Positions 5,803 through 59,839 of a stretch of DNA of 64,000 nucleotides are shown here, piece by piece. Below the pieces are notes generated by a model. It had not been told where the DNA came from. It was given only the letters and a program-made list of their open reading frames with translations, and did no database searches. Numbering within the stretch: position 1 is the stretch's first letter; every line of letters begins with the position of its first letter. The stretch is taken from positions 18,589 to 82,588 of IMG/VR virus record IMGVR_UViG_3300025141_015211, one strand, 5' to 3'. Source of the DNA: a virus. The translations under genes and the position numbers were made by a program.

Positions 5803-6093
5803 ATGAGTGACTATGAATTTTATGAAGTTGCAAAATTGTGGCTTCCAGATGAAAGTAAGGGTGTTGTTAAAATTGTATCTTTTGCAAATGAGGGTGGCTA
5901 TGCAACACTTCACTTTGACGATGAGTATGTTTTACATATCTCAAAAGAAACGCTATTGAATTTAAAATCCCTGATTAACGAGACAGTAGACGCTTTAGAA
6001 GGTTTCGAAAAGTTTAACAACTTTACATCAAAGTCTTGCACAAAAGAAAACCCTGATAATGTTTTAGAATTTAAAAGAAAAGATGATGATTAA
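5803..6093 (+). CDS. Hypothetical protein (96 aa)
   Basis: The product is acidic, with a predicted beta-rich first half (GVVKIVSFAN, YATLHFDDEYVLHIS) and a helical second half. No family is recognised. It follows the tRNA and overlaps the next gene by 11 bases. Confidence 0.6.
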   Translation: MSDYEFYEVAKLWLPDESKGVVKIVSFANEGGYATLHFDDEYVLHISKETLLNLKSLINETVDALEGFEKFNNFTSKSCTKENPDNVLEFKRKDDD

Positions 6094-18157: not shown

Positions 18158-18712
18158 TTATTTTTGACCTTTTTCTACTGCTTCTTTTCTTAGTTCACCT
18201 TCCATAACTGCCTTTGCAAGCTCTGAGCTAGATCTAATCTTTCCGCCGCCTACATTAAAAATTACTTCGCAGCCGATATCTTCACATAGATTAAACTCAG
18301 GTACGTTTTCTGCTGAGTCTCGATCGCCGCCCTTTGTAAAAAAATTTGGCCTCAAGGCATCTATTGCGCCTGTTACAGTCTGTGTACCGTCATCCCATCC
18401 GAGGACGTAATCAACACCATCGATTCCTGCGACAATTTCCATACGCTCTGGATGCGGCATAAATGCGTAACCTTTTTTTCGATAGAGAAATCCGTCGCCG
18501 TTAACTATCACTACAAAGACACCCGGCTTTCCTCTTCCTGTTGGTCCGCCCTCACACATTAGTGCTGTCTGTTGTAAACACCTTAAATGACCTACGTGAA
18601 GCGGATCAAACCCGCCGGAAGTGCAGTAGATATTAAATCCTAATGACTTAATCTCTTCACTTAACTTGTCAATTTCGCTGTGAGAAAAAATTTTCTTAGT
18701 TGAATACATCAT
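18158..18712 (-). CDS. Cytidylyltransferase-fold protein, RfaE/HldE C-domain-like
   Basis: TSGGFDPLHVGHLRCL contains the H-x-G-H signature of the nucleotidyltransferase fold. TKGGDRD in the middle and a late KIRSSSEL helix match the ADP-heptose synthase C-terminal domain (RfaE/HldE). It may form a nucleotide-activated sugar for surface glycans, consistent with the epimerases and sulfotransferase in the window. No sugar kinase domain is attached. Confidence 0.8.
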   Translation of the reverse strand: MMYSTKKIFSHSEIDKLSEEIKSLGFNIYCTSGGFDPLHVGHLRCLQQTALMCEGGPTGRGKPGVFVVIVNGDGFLYRKKGYAFMPHPERMEIVAGIDGVDYVLGWDDGTQTVTGAIDALRPNFFTKGGDRDSAENVPEFNLCEDIGCEVIFNVGGGKIRSSSELAKAVMEGELRKEAVEKGQK

Positions 18713-20855: not shown

Positions 20856-21617
20856 TTACCCCTTTGCGATTTGCTGAATTGTTTCTTTAGTAGCTTCAAA
20901 GTCGCTGCTAGCGACTAAATCATCAGAAATTCCAAACCTAAGCCTCAAAATTTTCTCTTCACGCTCAGATAGCCCTTCCAGGCAATTTTTTATTGCAATC
21001 ATAATCTTTTCTTTATCAAGCTCACTATCAATATTTACAGCTTCATCGTCAACAATCACTTCAAGTAATGTGCGCCCTTCTGAATCTGTCCACGGATTTG
21101 TATCTAGTGACATAATTTTTGTCAAATTTATGGACTCTATGCTGGCACGTATCATACCGTCAGACACGCCTAAAAGATCTGCAAGTTCGTTTACAGTGGG
21201 TAACTGTCCAAACTCTTCTTCATATTCAACATTTAACTTCTGTATTTTCCAAGCAATGCTTGCTGTATGTGACGGGATCCTCACTGTGTTTCTATGCATG
21301 CTTACATGTCTACTAACAGCTTGTCTAATCCACCAACATGCATATGTAGAAAACTTAAAGCCGCGACGCCAGTCAAACCGATCAACTGCTTTCATTAGAC
21401 CAATATTTGATTCTTGAATTAGATCTTCAAAGTCACAGCCACGTTTTGCATATTTTTTTGCAATGCTTATCGCAAGCCTTAAATTTGCTTCTATCATACG
21501 ATCTCTTGCAGATTGATCTCCTTTTTCTATTGCTTTCGCAAGAACAACTTCCTGTTCTCTTGACAAAAGACTGTTTCTGGATACGTCTTTAAAATAAGAA
21601 TCTAAAATATTCGCCAT
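20856..21617 (-). CDS. Sigma-70-family factor with truncated region 4
   Basis: Region 1.2/2 is present (LSREQEVVLAKAI, then ANLRLAISIAKKYAKRG, DLIQESNIGLMKAVDRFD and FSTYACWWIRQAVSRHV). Region 3 follows (RIPSHTASIAWKIQ, LADLLGVS), as does the start of region 4 (LSEREEKILRLRFGI). The chain then ends at KETIQQIAKG, within the first helix of the region 4.2 helix-turn-helix, so the recognition helix is missing. T4 gp55 is a known sigma without a region 4 that acts with a co-activator. A CGTGTAT-17-TATAAT promoter lies upstream with AGGAG near the ATG. Confidence 0.88.
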   Translation of the reverse strand: MANILDSYFKDVSRNSLLSREQEVVLAKAIEKGDQSARDRMIEANLRLAISIAKKYAKRGCDFEDLIQESNIGLMKAVDRFDWRRGFKFSTYACWWIRQAVSRHVSMHRNTVRIPSHTASIAWKIQKLNVEYEEEFGQLPTVNELADLLGVSDGMIRASIESINLTKIMSLDTNPWTDSEGRTLLEVIVDDEAVNIDSELDKEKIMIAIKNCLEGLSEREEKILRLRFGISDDLVASSDFEATKETIQQIAKG

Positions 21618-23050: not shown

Positions 23051-24856
<1,806 letters not shown>

Positions 24857-48254: not shown

Positions 48255-50153
48255 TTACGGTGATGCTTCTTCAAAGTCTGCATCAATTGTTTCAGTGCTT
48301 ACAACTGGATCAATTTCTAAATCTTGCCCTTGCTCATTTGCCTGAGCTTGCATTTGCATTTGCTGTGTAAAAATTGATACTTCAATCATTACTTTTTGAA
48401 TTTCATCAAGTGACACTTTGATCTCATCAATATTGTCGCCCAAGACTGCAGACTTTGCCCTCTCAAGTGTGGTAGATGCTAAGTCTTTAATGTGGGGTGA
48501 TAAAAAGTCATCTGCTTCTCTTGCCGCAGACTCAAGCTGATACATGTTAGAATCAAGCTCATTCTTTTTATCAATTAATGCACGCCTAGTCTCATCTTCT
48601 TCTCGATTTACTTCAGCATCTTCAATCATTTGACTAATTTCTTGTTCATCAAGGGCACCTGTGTCTTCAATCTTTATCGACTGTACTACACCTGTCGCCT
48701 TGTTCTTTGCTGAGACATTAACGATTCCATTAGCATCAATATCAAAAGTTACTTCGATTTGAGGCGCGCCTCTAGGTGCTGGGTCAATTCCTGTTAATTG
48801 AAAATTACCCAATGTTCTGTTGTCTTTAGCAAACTGTCGCTCACCTTGTAGTGCATGAATATCAACAGATTGTTGTCCATCTACAGCTGTACTAAACACT
48901 TCAGACCTACTACAAGGTATTGTTGTATTTCTTTCGATCAGGGTTGTCATAACACTACCTATAGTTTCAACACCGAGTGATAATGGTGTAACGTCAAGTA
49001 AAAGAATATCTTCAACGTCTCCTGAGAAAACACCGCCTTGGACAGCTGCACCTAGTGAAACAACTTCATCAGGATTTACAGAGTGATTTAACTTCTTTCC
49101 AAAAAACTTTTCAACTGCACTTCTCACTGCAGGAATGCGTGTTGATCCACCCACAAGGAGTACCTCATCAATATCACCTACTTTAAGCTTAGCATCATCT
49201 ATAGCCTTCTTAACAGGCGTCAGCGATGTTGCAATAAAAATCTCGACCATCTGATCAAACTTTGCACGTGTCAAGGTTATTGCAAGATGTTTGGGACCTG
49301 CTGAGTCAGCTGTCAAAAAGGGTAAATTAATATCTGTACTACTAGCAGAAGAAAGTTCAATCTTAGCTTTTTCTGCAGCATCTTTAAGACGCTGAATAAC
49401 AATATTGTCATGTCCAACATTTATGCCTGTGTCTTTTTCAAATTCTGAAACAAGCCAATCGATGATGAGCTGATCTACGTCATCACCTCCCAAATGTGTA
49501 TCACCATTTGTGCTTAAAACTTCGACTACACCATCAGAGATTTCCAAAATAGATATATCAAAAGTGCCGCCGCCGAGATCGTACACAGCAATCTTTTGTT
49601 CACCCTTTTTGTCCATACCGTAAGCAAGTGCAGCAGCAGTTGGCTCATTAATAATGCGTTTAACATCAAGCCCGGCAATTTTACCAGCGTCCTTAGTTGC
49701 TTGACGCTGAGCATCATTAAAATAAGCAGGGACTGTAATGACAGCATCAGTAATCTTAGTACCTAAATAGTCTTCAGCGCTACGCTTTAGCTTTTCAAGA
49801 ATAAGTGCACTCACTTGTTGTGGCGCATACTTCTTTTTACCTATTGCAAACTGGCATGAGCCGTCTCTTTTTCGTTTAATATCGTAAGGCATATTTTCAA
49901 CATGCTTCTTGACATCCTTAAATTTAGCACCCATAAATCGCTTTGAAGAAAATATAGTATTTTCAGGATTGACAATAGCTTGCCTCCGTGCTGTTTTCCC
50001 TACAAGGCGGGCATCATCTGGTGTAAAAGCAACAACAGATGGCGTCGTTCTGTCACCCTCTTCATTCACAATTACTTTAGGAATACCATTTTCGACTACT
50101 GCAACAGCAGAATTTGTCGTCCCTAAATCAATTCCTATTACTTTATTACTCAT
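48255..50153 (-). CDS. dnaK: Hsp70 chaperone DnaK (632 aa)
   Basis: VIGIDLGTTNSAVAVVE, PAYFNDAQRQATKDAG, VYDLGGGTFDISIL and VLLVGGSTRIPAVR give a complete ATPase domain. DVTPLSLGVETIGSVMT links it to the substrate domain, and a helical lid follows. Length is normal for DnaK. No GrpE gene is visible. It lies after dnaJ, the reverse of the common order, and a terminator follows. Confidence 0.98.
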   Translation of the reverse strand: MSNKVIGIDLGTTNSAVAVVENGIPKVIVNEEGDRTTPSVVAFTPDDARLVGKTARRQAIVNPENTIFSSKRFMGAKFKDVKKHVENMPYDIKRKRDGSCQFAIGKKKYAPQQVSALILEKLKRSAEDYLGTKITDAVITVPAYFNDAQRQATKDAGKIAGLDVKRIINEPTAAALAYGMDKKGEQKIAVYDLGGGTFDISILEISDGVVEVLSTNGDTHLGGDDVDQLIIDWLVSEFEKDTGINVGHDNIVIQRLKDAAEKAKIELSSASSTDINLPFLTADSAGPKHLAITLTRAKFDQMVEIFIATSLTPVKKAIDDAKLKVGDIDEVLLVGGSTRIPAVRSAVEKFFGKKLNHSVNPDEVVSLGAAVQGGVFSGDVEDILLLDVTPLSLGVETIGSVMTTLIERNTTIPCSRSEVFSTAVDGQQSVDIHALQGERQFAKDNRTLGNFQLTGIDPAPRGAPQIEVTFDIDANGIVNVSAKNKATGVVQSIKIEDTGALDEQEISQMIEDAEVNREEDETRRALIDKKNELDSNMYQLESAAREADDFLSPHIKDLASTTLERAKSAVLGDNIDEIKVSLDEIQKVMIEVSIFTQQMQMQAQANEQGQDLEIDPVVSTETIDADFEEASP

Positions 50154-50223
50154 TAATCACATCTCCTATCTGTTTTGCGTGATATGCATAAATTAAACAC
50201 AATTTTTACTAAGAAAACCCTTT

Positions 50224-51294
50224 TTAATCATTTTTTTTAATGTCTTCTCTTAGCTGTTTAAATTTTCTAATTAAACCTAGTTCATCACTAGATAAATTTG
50301 TTGGTGTCAAAACATGAATCTGAACATGAAGTGTACCTCTATGTCCAGAACCTGCACCGTTTAGCAAGCCTTTTTCTTTGAATTGAAACACACTGTGTGT
50401 TTGTGTACCTGGCGGGATTTTAACTGTAATTTTTTCATCTATACCGTCAAATTCAAGTTCATTACCTAAAATTGCAGCTTCAATCGGTATTTGCATAGCT
50501 GTATACAAATTAGATCCATCTCGGTCAAACCTGTCATTTTCTTGTAAAATAATTTGGGCGTATGCATCACCCGGTTCACCACAGTTAGGTGCAAAATGCC
50601 CTAAGCCCTGTAGTCTAATTTGATCGCCTTCCAAAACGCCGGCAGGAATATTAACAGTTACGTCTTTGATTTCAGGGCGTAGACCTTGACCAGAGCATAA
50701 ACTGCAAGGTGTAGTAATCACTTTACCAGCGCCGCCACATGTCCTACAATTTTGAACAACAGACATAAAACCAGTTTGAAATGCAACTTCCCCTGTGCCT
50801 TTGCATTGTTCACAGGTAGAGATATCACTTTCACTTTGATAACCTTTGCTATCACACGCATCACATGATAAGTTTCTCTGAAATGTTACTCTTTTTTTGC
50901 AGCCCCTCAAGGCTTCTCGAAAAGACACTTCAACGCCTATTCCAATATTACCGCCTGTTCGAGGTCTTGCACTTGCACTAGAAGACCGTTTTCTTCTACC
51001 TCCAAAAATATCAAAACCAAAACCTTGAAAAATATCAGAAAAAGAACTAAAAATATCTTCAGGCATACCTGAAAAGTCTGCAGTCCCGTACTTATCATAA
51101 TTACTTTTCTTCTCAGAATCAGACAAAACAGCATAAGCTTGAGAGATTTCTTTAAATTTCTTTTCTGCTTCTTCATCATCCGGGTTCTTGTCAGGATGAT
51201 ACTTCATTGCTAGCTTTCTGTAAGCTTTCTTTATTTCGCTATCTGATGAATTTTTAGATACACCTAATAACTCATAAAAATCATGTGATGCCAC
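50224..51294 (-). CDS. dnaJ: Hsp40 co-chaperone DnaJ (356 aa)
   Basis: A J domain with HPD (KYHPDKNP), a Gly/Phe region, four C-x-x-C-x-G-x-G zinc motifs ([32 protein letters not shown]) and two beta C-terminal domains make a full type I DnaJ. It would stimulate the ATPase of the DnaK encoded 70 bases downstream. A second, unrelated J-domain protein lies at 59099. Confidence 0.97.
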
Positions 51295-51309: not shown

Positions 51310-51756
51310 TTATTCTATTTCTTTGTCGTAAGGTTCAAAAAGCAAGGTATCAGACTCAAAGCATCTGTCTAAATAATCTTCAAGTTGCTCGAATGTTGTA
51401 CAAACTTTAACACCACTTCTTGCAAGCATTAAGTTAAATTTTGCACCCTGGGGTAAACCTTGACAAAAGTATACGATGGGCACTTCATTCGCATATGCGT
51501 AACCGGCTTCCCAGATAGTTCCAATGTCCTTATCTCTTGTATTTACAATGAGAAAATCTGCTGTCTTGATATGGTGTAAGTTTCCATCAAATGTTGCATC
51601 TTGAGTCTCTTTAGGCGCATTTGGCGGACAGACAAAGATTCTTCGTGGTGATGCTAAGTCAATCCACGACCTGGTGTCACAAACCTCTTCAAGGCGAGTG
51701 AGTTCTTCTGCTTGTGTCGGGTTAAACCAGCCCGATGCTAGATAAATCTTTTTCAT
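51310..51756 (-). CDS. Nucleoside 2-deoxyribosyltransferase-like protein
   Basis: IYLASGWFNPTQAEELTRLE at the start, DFLIVNTRDKDIGTIWEAGYAYANEVPIV in the middle. The D-x-G-T-x-x-E-x-G-x-A segment holds the catalytic Glu of this family. It exchanges bases between deoxynucleosides and could recycle host nucleosides or remove unwanted ones. Lies between ThyX and DnaJ. Confidence 0.85.
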   Translation of the reverse strand: MKKIYLASGWFNPTQAEELTRLEEVCDTRSWIDLASPRRIFVCPPNAPKETQDATFDGNLHHIKTADFLIVNTRDKDIGTIWEAGYAYANEVPIVYFCQGLPQGAKFNLMLARSGVKVCTTFEQLEDYLDRCFESDTLLFEPYDKEIE

Positions 51757-51765
51757 GTTAATCTC

Positions 51766-52737
51766 CTAAAAGTTATTTTCGTATTCTGACTTAAGACCTT
51801 GAAATTCATTCATTAGATCCAGCCACATTGTTGTAAAAATCTTTTCACCCGTACCGTGCGTCCCATTTAATTCTTCACGACGACATGGGTAAATTGTGTC
51901 ATCTTCATGGTAGTCAAACGTATCATTCTTCGGCTCTGGTTGATAAAGGTTTGTACCTCTACTGATCCACTTGTCACCTTCCTTAACGCGAAAAGTATTA
52001 ATATAGTGATAATCAGGCTTGTCAAAGTTAAATACCTGCGTCAGCTCTGGAATAGCTTTACACGCTTCAATTGCCATTCGTGCAGCAAGAACATTATCAG
52101 CAGCTGGCTGAATCTGTGCATCTTGCCGCTGTCGGACAAATCCAATTAAATCTTTAAGATTAAGTCGCATATAATAAAAAGAAGTCATACACTTTGGTAG
52201 TATCATGCGTGAATCCATCATTGAGACAACTTTGGAGTCAGTCATGTCAGCATAAAGCTGCTTTGACTCAATAACTAGTCTAGTATACCTTTCTAGAAAC
52301 TCAGGTGAGTTCTGAACAGATTCTGGCACAACAACAGGATCATCTCTTAAGTCTCTGTCTCCCGTACATTGTGCAGCAAAAGACCCGGCTCTGTGCCTAA
52401 TAATATGAGTTACTTCCTGAAACGAAAGACCCGAAAGCCTAAATGTAAATCCTAGACATTCCATCGGGGTAGGCAATGCTCGAAACTGGAGCACATCAAG
52501 CAGATTCTTACTCTTTACACTGACGCTTGCGCTTGCAGGATTAACTTCATTTGGATCATCAGCCCATGTTGCCTTTACATAATGCCACGCAACATTTCTA
52601 GCCTGATCTGTTGTGGGCGCATCAACAAGCTCGACCTTAAGTGCTTTAAGGTTGTTAAGAAAAGTTGTATTAGGTTGTTGATCAAATTTAAGATCCATGG
52701 GCAAAGTGATAGGGTCTAAATTATTATTCAGTGGCAT
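51766..52737 (-). CDS. thyX: Flavin-dependent thymidylate synthase ThyX-like (323 aa)
   Basis: IIRHRAGSFAAQCTGDRDL is a variant of the ThyX motif R-H-R-x-x-S-x-N-E-x-S-x-R: the RHR and Ser are kept, but the second half differs. The later RQRQDAQIQPAADNVLAARM fits the FAD/dUMP-binding helix. It is longer than the usual 220-250 residues, with an extended N-terminus. It would make dTMP from dUMP supplied by the deaminase and dUTPases. Confidence 0.8.
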   Translation of the reverse strand: MPLNNNLDPITLPMDLKFDQQPNTTFLNNLKALKVELVDAPTTDQARNVAWHYVKATWADDPNEVNPASASVSVKSKNLLDVLQFRALPTPMECLGFTFRLSGLSFQEVTHIIRHRAGSFAAQCTGDRDLRDDPVVVPESVQNSPEFLERYTRLVIESKQLYADMTDSKVVSMMDSRMILPKCMTSFYYMRLNLKDLIGFVRQRQDAQIQPAADNVLAARMAIEACKAIPELTQVFNFDKPDYHYINTFRVKEGDKWISRGTNLYQPEPKNDTFDYHEDDTIYPCRREELNGTHGTGEKIFTTMWLDLMNEFQGLKSEYENNF

Positions 52738-52778: not shown

Positions 52779-52807
52779 ATCATAAAGAAGAAATGTTTTT
52801 AATACAA
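52779..52807 (-). promoter_or_regulatory. Weak promoter candidate before thyX
   Basis: On the minus strand TTGTAT (52807-52802) and TATGAT (52784-52779) are 17 bases apart, a two-mismatch version of the CGTGTAA-17-TATAAT class. It overlaps the last codons of the upstream gene. Confidence 0.4.
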
Positions 52808-53718
52808 GAAATTAATTCTTTAGCATTTTTATACATTGTTACATTTTCAAGATCAGAAAGTTCTGTGTTGTAAGATTTGCAAGGTACACATGTCTTTACA
52901 CTGTGTTTAGCATACTCTGCTGAATGTTTTGCAGAGTCATCAATAGCACACACAATTTTCTCATTAGTGTAGTAATCAGTTTTTGTCAACCATCGGTATT
53001 TTTCAGGACTGAAGTCTACACGATGATATTTTAGGCCTGATTTTTTAAGCCATTGAAAAGTATCATATTTACATACAAGTGAATCATCTGGTCTTGCTGT
53101 AAGAATTTGTATCCAGTAACCCTCATCATGTAATTTATTTACAGCTTCAATAATTTCTTTATCTGGTTTGATATTTCTTAATTGTCGATTTGCAACAAAT
53201 TCTTCAAATACAGCCTCAGGGTTTAGCCCTGCTTCTTTTACCTCTGCTGTTGTATAATATTCTGTTGAATTTATATCTGCATCGATATCATGTGTGAGTT
53301 TAAGCCAATTTATAAATGTTTCCCTAAACTCACAAATTACATCATCTAAATCAAATATTAACACTGGTTGACCAGTCCACTTTACAGACTCCATCTGATG
53401 TCTGGTGTGTAAAAATAAATCTTTATCATCAAATGCAGAGATGAACTGTTCTGATCTTACATCCCAAAGATTTAGTATTGCAAGGAGGTAGCGAAATACG
53501 TCAATTGACTCGTACAGTATCTTCTCTTTATCTATTTGAGAACGAGACTGACGGTGATCTTTAAAATTAATTGCACTAATTAACTCAGAAACTTCTGTGT
53601 GCAACGCTAACGTCAAAGATTTAGTGATTTCTTCTTTTTCCAAATCTGCCAGATCGCCTGAATCAAAAAATAGTTTATTAAAATCACTCTGACATCTAAA
53701 CATGTCTTCAAGCGTCAT
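52780..53718 (-). CDS. All-alpha dUTPase-like / HAD phosphatase fusion (312 aa)
   Basis: Residues about 25-105 contain LALHTEVSELISAINFKDHR and ILYESIDVFRYLLAIL, the E-x-x-E and D-x-x-x-[FY] helices of MazG/dUTPase-type all-alpha pyrophosphatases. From residue 118 a HAD domain starts (LIFDLDDVICEF), with ILTARPDDS and a late IDDSAKHS. One enzyme could turn dUTP into dUMP, and the second could remove phosphate from a nucleotide. Such a fusion is unusual. Confidence 0.7.
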   Translation of the reverse strand: MTLEDMFRCQSDFNKLFFDSGDLADLEKEEITKSLTLALHTEVSELISAINFKDHRQSRSQIDKEKILYESIDVFRYLLAILNLWDVRSEQFISAFDDKDLFLHTRHQMESVKWTGQPVLIFDLDDVICEFRETFINWLKLTHDIDADINSTEYYTTAEVKEAGLNPEAVFEEFVANRQLRNIKPDKEIIEAVNKLHDEGYWIQILTARPDDSLVCKYDTFQWLKKSGLKYHRVDFSPEKYRWLTKTDYYTNEKIVCAIDDSAKHSAEYAKHSVKTCVPCKSYNTELSDLENVTMYKNAKELISCIKNISSL

Positions 53719-53935
53719 CTTTACTCTCAGGTAAATAATTCATAGCAGCTAAAACCTTAGCAAGATCGTGTCCGCCTACATGAAGCGATGCTTTGTTTCC
53801 TGGTGAAAAAATTTGCGCATGATACCGCTTAACGTCTAAAACGCTCAATGCTTTCTGCGTTTTTTTGTCAAACTTTTTAGGGATTTCAATTTCAAGATGT
53901 GAAAACACTAATTTGTATGTGTCATCAGTAGCCAT
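53708..53935 (-). CDS. Hypothetical protein (75 aa)
   Basis: ATG giving MATDDTYKL overlaps the stop region of the upstream dUTPase-like gene and has GAGAG eight bases upstream. Strands (YKLVFSHLEIEIPK, YHAQIFSPGNKASLHV) precede a helix. No family is recognised. It overlaps the fusion gene by 11 bases. Confidence 0.5.
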   Translation of the reverse strand: MATDDTYKLVFSHLEIEIPKKFDKKTQKALSVLDVKRYHAQIFSPGNKASLHVGGHDLAKVLAAMNYLPESKDDA

Positions 53936-54299
53936 TATCAATTCTCTCCCGTATTACAAAATCCTTATCTTCATAAGCTTGAAATAGATCGTCTGCAGAA
54001 AATCCAGTTAATACTAAAACTGACAAAAAATAATTGAAAGCATCGACAACTTCTTCAAGAAATAAATCTGTATTAAATTCACTTACCTCTGTCATCCGAT
54101 GGGGCTTCCAATTCTTAAGATGTTGTAAAGCTTCAAACATCTCTTCGACGCCTCGCAGTGCCATGTCTCTAACATGCTGCTGAGAACTTTTATCAAGTAG
54201 GTCTATGGGCCAAGTCGGAGAAGCACCTTCTGGGTTTGCCTCCTTAAGCCTTAGCATAAAAGACTCTCTCAACTCAAACATTTTATCAAGCTTATCCAT
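53925..54299 (-). CDS. All-alpha dUTPase-like protein (124 aa)
   Basis: LDKMFELRESFMLRL at the start, GVEEMFEALQHLKNWKP with the E-E-x-x-E segment, and DLFLEEVVDAFNYFLSVLVL with E-x-x-D follow the dimeric dUTPase/MazG fold. It is the second such protein in this block. Keeping dUTP low would protect phage DNA from uracil. One base follows the upstream gene. Confidence 0.75.
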   Translation of the reverse strand: MDKLDKMFELRESFMLRLKEANPEGASPTWPIDLLDKSSQQHVRDMALRGVEEMFEALQHLKNWKPHRMTEVSEFNTDLFLEEVVDAFNYFLSVLVLTGFSADDLFQAYEDKDFVIRERIDNGY

Positions 54300-54300
54300 T

Positions 54301-54549
54301 TCAGCCCTGCAGGTTAAAGTTTTCCTTATAGCTTTGAACTTCAGCCATCATCTTTTCAACATTGCTGTCGCTATTTTCCTTGTACTCTGACTCAAGCTTT
54401 AGTGCTTCTAAACCTTCACCAAGCGGTGTTAGTCGAATCATACGAAGATTATCAACAATGTCTGTACCCGTAAGAATTGCGAGTTGTAAAAGTTGTGCTA
54501 CATGAGCAATAACATCATCAGACAGTGTGTAACTAGTTTGATTGTCCAT
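54301..54549 (-). CDS. Helical hypothetical protein (82 aa)
   Basis: All-helical (SDDVIAHVAQLLQLAILTG, then EGLEALKLESEYKE). It is the first gene of the minus block after the strand switch. TATAAT on the minus strand (54586-54581) lies 32 bases upstream, without a GTGTAA or TTGACA. No family is recognised. Confidence 0.55.
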   Translation of the reverse strand: MDNQTSYTLSDDVIAHVAQLLQLAILTGTDIVDNLRMIRLTPLGEGLEALKLESEYKENSDSNVEKMMAEVQSYKENFNLQG

Positions 54550-54716
54550 TTTTTTCTCCTATTTTTGTATAGTATTTCTGATTATATACAGTACTCTATT
54601 ATCTGTATTTTCATTCTTAAACATCATATTAATCAATTCTTTCGTGGAAACCTTTTTTGACACAAAACACCTTGATATTTAAAGTTATAATATACTATAA
54701 GGATAAGTTTGTTCAA

Positions 54717-55379
54717 ATGAAAAGAGTCATCATCTCTGATACACACATCGGTACTAAATTTTATAAGAGCGATAAACTCTTAAAGTTTCTACAAACTGAA
54801 GAGTATGATGAGCTTGTCCTTGCTGGCGACATAATTGACTTTATTAAGATTCCCGTCTTTACAGAACGATGTATGGAGATTATAAATGCCATTGACTACG
54901 AGAACAAGAGTATAATCTACGTCGTGGGAAATCATGACGAGAGTTTATTAGGGCTCATTGGGAAGAGTTTCTTTAATGTCACGTTTTTAAAGCGTTACGA
55001 CTTTGAAGAAGACGGTAGAAAATTTAGAATTGAGCATGGTGATGCCTATGACAAAGGTCGAATACACAACAAGCTGTTTGTGAAATTTCTTTCTGTCCTG
55101 CAAAATGTATTAGAGTTTTCGTTTAGCTTTGACTTTACAAGCTGGTGGACAGAGATACAGATCAAGAAACACAAGCTGAGATCTATTATCGATATCCTAA
55201 GGCACAACCCACGTATAGATGTGTTTATTATGGGTCACACACACATTCCAGAAGCGCTTATCTGGGTTAATGAAGACCAACATATAAAGACCTACATCAA
55301 CTCAGGAGACTGGGTCACACATCAAACCTATGTGACAGTTACTAATGGCGTAGCCAGGCTGTGTAAATTTGAAGACTAA
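54717..55379 (+). CDS. Calcineurin-like metallophosphoesterase, LpxH-like (220 aa)
   Basis: The metal motifs are VIISDTHIGT (D8, H10), LAGDIIDF, YVVGNHDE and FIMGHTHIPE, and SGDW at the end. This is the UDP-2,3-diacylglucosamine hydrolase-like subgroup; the substrate in the phage is unknown. ATG with AAGGATAAG upstream is used; an earlier in-frame ATG is less likely. It is the only plus-strand gene between 9.5 and 64 kb, and its stop abuts the stop of the next minus gene. TATAAT (54686-54691) lies upstream. Confidence 0.85.
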   Translation: MKRVIISDTHIGTKFYKSDKLLKFLQTEEYDELVLAGDIIDFIKIPVFTERCMEIINAIDYENKSIIYVVGNHDESLLGLIGKSFFNVTFLKRYDFEEDGRKFRIEHGDAYDKGRIHNKLFVKFLSVLQNVLEFSFSFDFTSWWTEIQIKKHKLRSIIDILRHNPRIDVFIMGHTHIPEALIWVNEDQHIKTYINSGDWVTHQTYVTVTNGVARLCKFED

Positions 55380-58060: not shown

Positions 58061-58495
58061 TTAATATCTACCAAAGTTTTCCTTAAGAAAGTCATGGTAG
58101 TTGTTTAAAGCACTGTCCTTTGGATCAATATTTTGCCAGTCACCCAGACAAAACATCCTATACGCATCAGAACCATACTTTCCGATCCCATAGAGTGTTT
58201 CTGGATGATCTTGCCAGTCTTTTTGCAGGTAATCCTTAGACATTCTAACAAGTGTCTTAGACCGCCTTCTAGACAACCCCAAAGGTTGAATTATGCTTTC
58301 TATCTCTTCTGGGTTTGCATTTGACATTGATTCTGGTCCTGGCCATCGTTTTATACACTCCCAGAAGTATGGTTCTGCCTGCACACGTTTTGTTAGATTA
58401 CAAAATATGCATACAACAAAGATCTTCCACGGATCTTCCCAAAGTTGTTCTTGTATGAGGTTGTATGGAGACTTAGGGGGAATCCACTTTGACAT
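58061..58495 (-). CDS. MBD4-like HhH-GPD DNA glycosylase (144 aa)
   Basis: PKSPYNLIQEQLWEDPWK, VCIFCNLTKRVQAEP, IIQPLGLSRRRSKTLVRMS and LYGIGKYGSDAYRMFC, then IDPKDSALNNYHDFL, follow the catalytic domain of vertebrate MBD4, which removes T or U opposite G. The helix-hairpin-helix and the catalytic Asp (D127 in DPKDSALN) are kept. The MBD domain is absent. In a phage it may repair deaminated cytosine or act on a modified base. Confidence 0.8.
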   Translation of the reverse strand: MSKWIPPKSPYNLIQEQLWEDPWKIFVVCIFCNLTKRVQAEPYFWECIKRWPGPESMSNANPEEIESIIQPLGLSRRRSKTLVRMSKDYLQKDWQDHPETLYGIGKYGSDAYRMFCLGDWQNIDPKDSALNNYHDFLKENFGRY

Positions 58496-59098: not shown

Positions 59099-59839
59099 TC
59101 AATTATCTTCGCCTAATTTTCTAGCCCAAGACAAAGATTTACCTGGATTACCGTTTTTCTTTCTAGACTTTTTTACTGCAGATAAATTTGATGTCCATCC
59201 CCGTTCTTTCATAAAGGCTCTCAAGATTTTTTTCTTCTCAACGTCGCTAGACTGTGCATACACAATATACATGCTTTTTTTCAATACTATTATTTTTTGT
59301 GAAAACTCTAGAATTTTTTGATCAATTATGTCAAGCCACTCAGGCTTGTAATTATCTAATATAATATTGAGCTCATCCATAACAAGTAACAAGCTTGAAT
59401 AATCTCCAGCCTGATAGTCTTCAGTTATTTTTTCAAACTTCTTGATAAGGTAATCTTTTTCTTCATCAGGTATACTCTTAGATAATTTATCAGGATGCAG
59501 CTTCATTGCAATTTTTCTATAAAGCTTTTTTATTTGTGCGTCATGACTCTTTTTGAAAGCAGACTTAACCTGTTCGTTATTTTTAGATTTTGATTGTTCT
59601 TGCGTTTCTTGATGCGCACTGTTCTGTGTATCACTTTTTTTAGTACTGCTCTTCTCACTTGTTGCTTTAAACGGGTCATCAAGCGCGGCATCATAAACGT
59701 TCATCTTAGCGTGAACCTCACGCAAGTCTGCCATGAACGCATCTTTTCCCTGCTTATCTAGTTCTTCATACTCTAAGAACTCTTGTTCAAGATAACGAAA
59801 CTTGTAAAGCTTTTTCTTAAAACCTGTCTTTAGGTTCAT
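59099..59839 (-). CDS. J-domain-containing protein (246 aa)
   Basis: KKLYRKIAMKLHPDKLSK at about residues 98-115 has the HPD motif, and helices on both sides fit a J domain, here internal with a helical N-terminal part (LEQEFLEYEELDKQGKDAF) and a C-terminal helical part. It could recruit the phage or host DnaK to a particular substrate. It differs from the DnaJ at 50224 in lacking zinc and Gly/Phe parts. Confidence 0.75.
   Translation of the reverse strand: MNLKTGFKKKLYKFRYLEQEFLEYEELDKQGKDAFMADLREVHAKMNVYDAALDDPFKATSEKSSTKKSDTQNSAHQETQEQSKSKNNEQVKSAFKKSHDAQIKKLYRKIAMKLHPDKLSKSIPDEEKDYLIKKFEKITEDYQAGDYSSLLLVMDELNIILDNYKPEWLDIIDQKILEFSQKIIVLKKSMYIVYAQSSDVEKKKILRAFMKERGWTSNLSAVKKSRKKNGNPGKSLSWARKLGEDN

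Follow-up and report, generated by a model that had tools for sequence, protein, structure and literature searches.

In eukaryotes MBD4 is known for protecting the genome where 5-methylcytosine has been deaminated; an MBD4-like gene in viral DNA raises the question of which base such an enzyme would remove. The gene considered here lies in the window, the whole stretch of 64,000 nucleotides that was analysed, which covers positions 18589 to 82588 of a virus record 82,588 bp long. The record is probably a fragment, and its source is a large marine phage. Judged by the MBD4-like gene the nearest relatives are L002 and L003, the latter (235,672 bp) being syntenic with the window.

Reading frame and family assignment

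58061-58495, minus strand: MBD4-type HhH-GPD DNA glycosylase, 144 aa (phmmer, profile, alignment and AlphaFold model)

The open reading frame is complete, with its ATG at 58495 and its stop at 58061-58063, and on the plus strand of the same interval stops interrupt reading; the initial annotation named no strand. In keeping with the initial annotation, which had the protein follow the catalytic domain of MBD4 including the HhH and Asp127, residues 2-141 of the 144 align with the catalytic domain of human MBD4 (phmmer, E = 1e-42, 45% identity over 140 residues). The next distinct family was MutY at E = 0.003, and a family profile built from 68 relatives scored 178 bits with MBD4 and 46 with archaeal MIG, its second-best match, so that no other HhH family lies closer. 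The AlphaFold model, made with the 68-sequence alignment (mean pLDDT 96.5, pTM 0.90), superimposes on MBD4 structures with TM scores of 0.91-0.94 and an rmsd of 0.7-0.9 Å, compared with TM scores of about 0.6 for MutY and EndoIII. Pfam detects HhH-GPD only in the protein, NCBIfam gives weak nth and mutY matches only, and PHROGs returned no family for any MBD4-like protein scanned.

EndoIII, MutY and MIG were ruled out as closer families by the phmmer result, the profile scores and the weakness of the NCBIfam matches. A chance reading frame was likewise ruled out by the match at E = 1e-42 and by a dN/dS of 0.07-0.14 against the nearest relatives, a ratio for which dS is high and partly saturated. 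The gene is under purifying selection, the open reading frame is genuine, and the MBD4 assignment is confirmed as far as the domain and its catalytic residues are concerned.

Active-site residues and the altered finger

In human MBD4, D560 activates the water, V448, Q449 and Y540 read the thymine edge, K562 contacts the 5′ phosphate of the flipped base, and R468 forms an arginine finger that senses the T:G pair and pinches the phosphate (PMC12073362). The corresponding residues of the phage protein are D127 (D560), I14 (V448), Q15 (Q449), Y107 (Y540), A129 (K562) and L34 (R468), with Y107 falling inside the HhH (LYGIGKYG, residues 101-108). Conservation was counted over 120 distinct MBD4-like proteins, each denominator being the number with data at that position. 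D127, whose loss in relatives would have spoken against the assignment, is invariant (119/119), as are Y107 (119/119) and N33 (117/117), while R78 is found in 117/118 and Q15 in 100/117. The K562-type lysine is missing here, and a lysine occupies that position in 4 of the 119 relatives.

The finger position differs throughout the family, with Leu in 68, Gln in 36, Cys in 10 and Met in 3 of 117 distinct relatives and neither Arg nor Lys in any of them. MutY and EndoIII-type enzymes function with Gln at the plug position. In human MBD4, R468L and R468Q are inactive or nearly so, with Arg or Lys needed for activity (PMC12073362). It had been stated that MBD4 removes T or U opposite G, and this activity cannot be carried over to the phage protein because the arginine finger is Leu34 here and is absent from all 117 relatives. 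The Leu finger could be compensated elsewhere.

The protein stops at residue 144, so that the HhH-GPD core is not followed by an Fe-S cluster loop, and its cysteines are C29, C32, C47 and C116, all of them located before the end of the core. Pfam finds no N-terminal methyl-CpG-binding domain in this single-domain protein. A Tyr is listed for MIG at the position of the EndoIII lysine (PMC11754123). On the basis of family knowledge, the Tyr at this position in the phage protein and the missing Fe-S loop point to a monofunctional enzyme.

A conserved gene module

The genes mapped around the glycosylase are as follows.

51310-51756, minus strand: probable nucleoside 2-deoxyribosyltransferase (one PF05014 match in the scanned set; this member inferred from sequence)
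51766-52737, minus strand: ThyX, flavin-dependent thymidylate synthase (cluster c12)
52780-53718, minus strand: dUTPase_2 domain followed by an NT5C-like pyrimidine 5′-nucleotidase domain (cluster c13)
53925-54299, minus strand: dUTPase_2 family protein, kept in the module (cluster c3)
54301-54549, minus strand: small conserved protein of 82 aa, no Pfam match, found after the MBD4-like gene or Fpg in 19 loci (cluster c2)
54657-55379, plus strand: calcineurin-like metallophosphoesterase, YfcE/LpxH-like, an opposite-strand neighbour kept in 9 loci
59099-59839, minus strand: protein of 246 aa (cluster c9), encoded ahead of the MBD4-like gene in several relatives (neighbourhood clusters and Pfam)

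Across 80 mapped loci the order in which the module recurs in the kin of the window is the MBD4-like gene, the metallophosphoesterase on the opposite strand, Fpg/Nei, the small c2 protein, dUTPase_2, the dUTPase_2/NT5C-like protein and ThyX, and the window carries every member except Fpg. The two dUTPases, ThyX and deaminases named in the initial annotation are all present in the window, both dUTPases belonging to the dUTPase_2 family and the deaminases being two members of the dCMP/cytidine family, and the context of pyrimidine and uracil metabolism proved to be kept as a gene module across relatives. The module also adjoins general replication genes, and the gene neighbourhood points only loosely to a shared pathway.

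The 246-aa protein is probably a DnaJ-domain protein, the scanned set holding two DnaJ matches of which the other is the phage DnaJ. A phage-encoded sigma-70-like factor, GroEL, DnaK and DnaJ are encoded at 20856-21617, 23051-24670 and 48255-51294. Many unrelated proteins share an N-terminal motif of the approximate form MKITxxxLRQIIKEE, at 1494, 4433, 10517, 11297, 56930 and 57974 of the window, at 6081, 7584 and 8890 of L101, and in relatives (L002:7081, L004:9248); it is perhaps a targeting or processing tag.

The Fpg/Nei partner and the UDG family

A reverse search that began from Fpg alone placed an MBD4-like gene no more than 8 kb away in 46 of 80 Fpg loci, in each case on the strand that carries Fpg. 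These counts are to be read as a pattern and not as a test statistic, since both searches favour the sequences most similar to their query and loci from a single lineage cannot be treated as independent. The MBD4-like gene is mostly directly upstream of Fpg, and the two reading frames often abut or overlap. Over whole records, Fpg is found in 18 of 46 with the MBD4-like gene and is thus lacking from more than half. No Fpg/Nei gene was found in the 82,588-bp record of the window, which is probably a fragment; the nearest relative L003 has one.

The phage Fpg/Nei proteins match Fpg/Nei models and keep P2, E3, K60 and the C-terminal finger arginine. The family corresponds to phrog_21295, whose function is unannotated, and occurs in at least 420 viral stretches (for example L036:6592-7837). 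At L139:7560-8801 a single open frame joins an MBD4-like domain directly to an Fpg/Nei protein (MPEGPEC...) and looks like a natural fusion. Fpg chemistry depends, however, on a proline that is free at the N-terminus, and the ATG inside the frame has been kept, so that an internal start or an assembly error is just as likely.

The UDG family (PF03167) was absent from 45 of 46 records that carry the MBD4-like gene and was found in 13 of 14 control genomes, which makes the MBD4-like protein the sole uracil-type glycosylase that most of these records encode. In the very large L049 record (416 kb; L208, L220-L221) the MBD4-like gene is accompanied by two genes of the UDG family and one for a TS-family enzyme of unusual type. 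Some phages may encode a base-excision route of their own, glycosylase plus Fpg/Nei lyase, which goes beyond merely blocking the host uracil glycosylase.

Distribution and evolution

At least 581 confirmed MBD4-like loci were found in IMG/VR, and among GenBank phages 8 records carry the gene, belonging to Bradleyvirinae-type phages and the cyanophage S-TIM54. A pattern scan of prokaryote genomes from 84,980 species gave 7 loci, too low a count given the longer patterns used, and several of these seed contigs look viral, with shared phage-like neighbours. The sole seed contig that looks cellular is from Candidatus Actinomarina (L092:4986-5375), where the gene lies amid ordinary cellular genes and is 63% identical to L088, near the cyanophage-type members; it looks to be a rare chromosomal copy. 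A profile search of 398, 296, 293 and 199 genomes in four phyla gave no new clear MBD4-type match besides each seed genome, and one borderline match of 59 bits was taken as the tree outgroup.

The phage-rich counts and the near-absence from sampled chromosomes indicate that, within this sampling, the MBD4 domain is carried in prokaryotic systems chiefly by phages. No published description of this widespread phage variant of MBD4, in which the finger is altered and Fpg/Nei is a frequent partner, was found in the literature searched. A catalytic domain found in hundreds of phages and few sampled bacterial or archaeal chromosomes, with no mismatch-sensing residue, makes both its substrate and the origin of MBD4 directly testable.

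In the first tree human MBD4, the one eukaryotic MBD4 sequence included, stood beside the phage clade of the window, nested in the phage radiation with support of 96/90. This placement lost support once long branches were removed, and a topology with human MBD4 outside every phage sequence was not rejected by the AU test (p = 0.55); a phage origin of eukaryotic MBD4 was dropped as a claim on these grounds. It is rather unlikely that the MBD4 domain was at its root a phage repair family with a Leu or Gln finger, probably uracil-type and acting in two steps with Fpg/Nei, from which eukaryotic MBD4 was derived by way of viruses, with the arginine finger for T:G gained later.

Proposed function and alternatives

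We infer, with a probability of about 0.6, that the protein is a monofunctional MBD4-type glycosylase that takes uracil-type bases from phage DNA as the first step of a phage base-excision route. In favour of this reading are the predicted fold, the pyrimidine-reading Gln15 and Tyr107, Asp127, the purifying selection and the conserved neighbourhood of uracil-excluding enzymes. A uracil-type base left by deaminated cytosine or by misincorporated dUTP, and perhaps a 5-substituted uracil as well, would be flipped out of the phage DNA and held at its Watson-Crick edge by Gln15 and Tyr107, and a water activated by Asp127 would cleave the glycosidic bond and so create an abasic site. Because Tyr occupies the position of the EndoIII lysine, no lyase activity would be expected, and another enzyme would have to cut the abasic site; this could be the adjacent phage Fpg/Nei in many relatives and here an enzyme of the host or one encoded beyond the ends of the 82.6-kb record. 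Since Leu34 takes the place of the arginine finger, the protein would not be expected to sense T:G in the manner of human MBD4, and a hydrophobic wedge would fit a uracil enzyme with looser demands on the base opposite. The neighbouring dUTPases and ThyX would keep the precursor pool free of uracil, with the glycosylase removing what gets through or arises in the DNA.

A possible but doubtful alternative is that the protein is a true functional MBD4, removing T (or 5hmU) opposite G and so repairing deaminated 5mC or 5hmC in phages whose cytosine is modified at C5. Its catalytic pocket corresponds to the one in which MBD4 binds thymine, and the Bradleyvirinae copy is two genes away from one for a TS-family enzyme that carries Asp177, a dCMP-type residue (PMC8670742). 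According to PMC9206674 the AXL1 copy has a counterpart in Xp12 alone, a phage with 5mC in place of every C, and the Asp177 enzyme occurs in 13 of 47 IMG/VR records with the MBD4-like gene. Against this stand the absence of the arginine finger in every relative examined and the absence of any TS-family enzyme from all 19 records of the clade of the window, including those of 235,672 and 202,054 bp. A DNA C5-methyltransferase (PF00145) is also absent from the record of the window and from 45 of 46 records with the MBD4-like gene.

Moreover, the Asp177 enzyme is a lineage trait, present equally in Bradleyvirinae without the MBD4-like gene (DLP4, DoCa10, Elanor, PaMx28, A1432 and Mallos) and also at Fpg loci without it. 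The MBD4-like gene is inserted in Bradleyvirinae between a small gene and a MazG-like/TS/dCMP deaminase/DHFR operon, and DLP4, DoCa10, Elanor and other near relatives have the same gene order without it. Asp177 together with Pro147 was seen in all Bradleyvirinae 'thymidylate synthases' examined and in that of Rhodobacter phage RcRudolph (L007, L008, L009, L189-L195); by their sequences these enzymes look dCMP-specific (C5-methylase or hydroxymethylase), which suggests C5-modified cytosine in phage DNA well beyond Xp12.

In the records searched no route to methylated cytosine was found for the clade of the window, neither a dCMP-type TS nor a DNA C5-methyltransferase, and for DNA methylation the record of the window offers only an MT-A70-like adenine methyltransferase candidate (L101:17373-17975, left of the window). 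As Asp177 tracks lineage, the clade is without the TS and the record is without a DNA C5-methyltransferase, the case for 5mC repair does not carry over to the phage of the window. A 5mC link was accordingly rejected as decisive, undone by the same enzyme in relatives without the MBD4-like gene and its absence from this clade, and stays as a rival. Repair of T:G or 5hmU:G is plausible in lineages with the Asp177 enzyme; strict T:G specificity is not supported for the phage of the window and fits the Xp12 relatives better.

Excision of 5hmU or another modified pyrimidine in a phage DNA-modification pathway, or discrimination against host bases, is improbable. There are crystal structures of human and mouse MBD4 bound to DNA with 5hmU (PDB 4ea5, 4e9h, 4ew0), and nucleotide-pool enzymes lie nearby, but Pfam, run on most proteins of the 82.6-kb record, gave no family for hydroxymethyl-pyrimidine synthesis or 5hmU kinase or transferase among the matches listed, and the product of ThyX is plain dTMP. 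Restriction and antiviral glycosylases are known (PMC10273834; PMC11078745), and yet a weapon that excises bases from host or mobile DNA and so aids its degradation is very unlikely for a gene that sits among replication and nucleotide genes with no evident host-takeover cluster, and whose pairing with Fpg and dUTPases fits repair. An inactive or structural DNA-binding relic, which the near-inactivity of human R468L (PMC12073362) would allow, is equally hard to credit when the catalytic residues are invariant in about 120 diverse relatives under strong purifying selection.

Comparison with known systems

The closest known systems are the C-terminal glycosylase domains of human and mouse MBD4 (MED1; PDB 4e9e, 6vjw, 4ofa), which the model matches with TM scores of 0.93-0.94 and with which the phage protein shares the catalytic Asp, the residues at Tyr540, Gln449, Asn467 and Arg512 and the lack of an Fe-S loop. 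It differs from them in Leu34 for R468, Ala129 for K562 and the missing methyl-CpG-binding domain, and its gene, unlike theirs, lies next to dUTPase and ThyX and, in relatives, Fpg. Plant MBD4 (AtMBD4L), likened here by description, is also an MBD4-type glycosylase without a methyl-CpG-binding domain (PMC10573277) but carries an extended N-terminal region and, opposite G, excises U and with lower efficiency T.

Within the same phage family, gp65 ('ENDO3c') of Stenotrophomonas phage AXL1 and its Bradleyvirinae relatives, including that of Xp12, have 36.7% identity, an intact Asp and a Leu finger, but the AXL1 gene lies in the MazG-like/TS(Asp177)/dCMP deaminase/DHFR operon. In the accessible part of its source gp65 is described as an EndoIII-like domain without a clear active site, and MBD4 is not named there (PMC9206674).

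The archaeal MIG T:G glycosylase (PDB 1kea), MutY and endonuclease III have the HhH-GPD superfamily in common with the phage protein and score at most 46 bits against 178 for MBD4. All three carry a C-terminal Fe-S domain, whereas the phage protein has neither such a domain nor a C-terminal cysteine cluster. MIG resembles it in the Tyr at the EndoIII lysine position (PMC11754123). The Fpg/Nei family (phrog_21295), with a fold unrelated to that of the MBD4-like protein, is its frequent operon partner in relatives.
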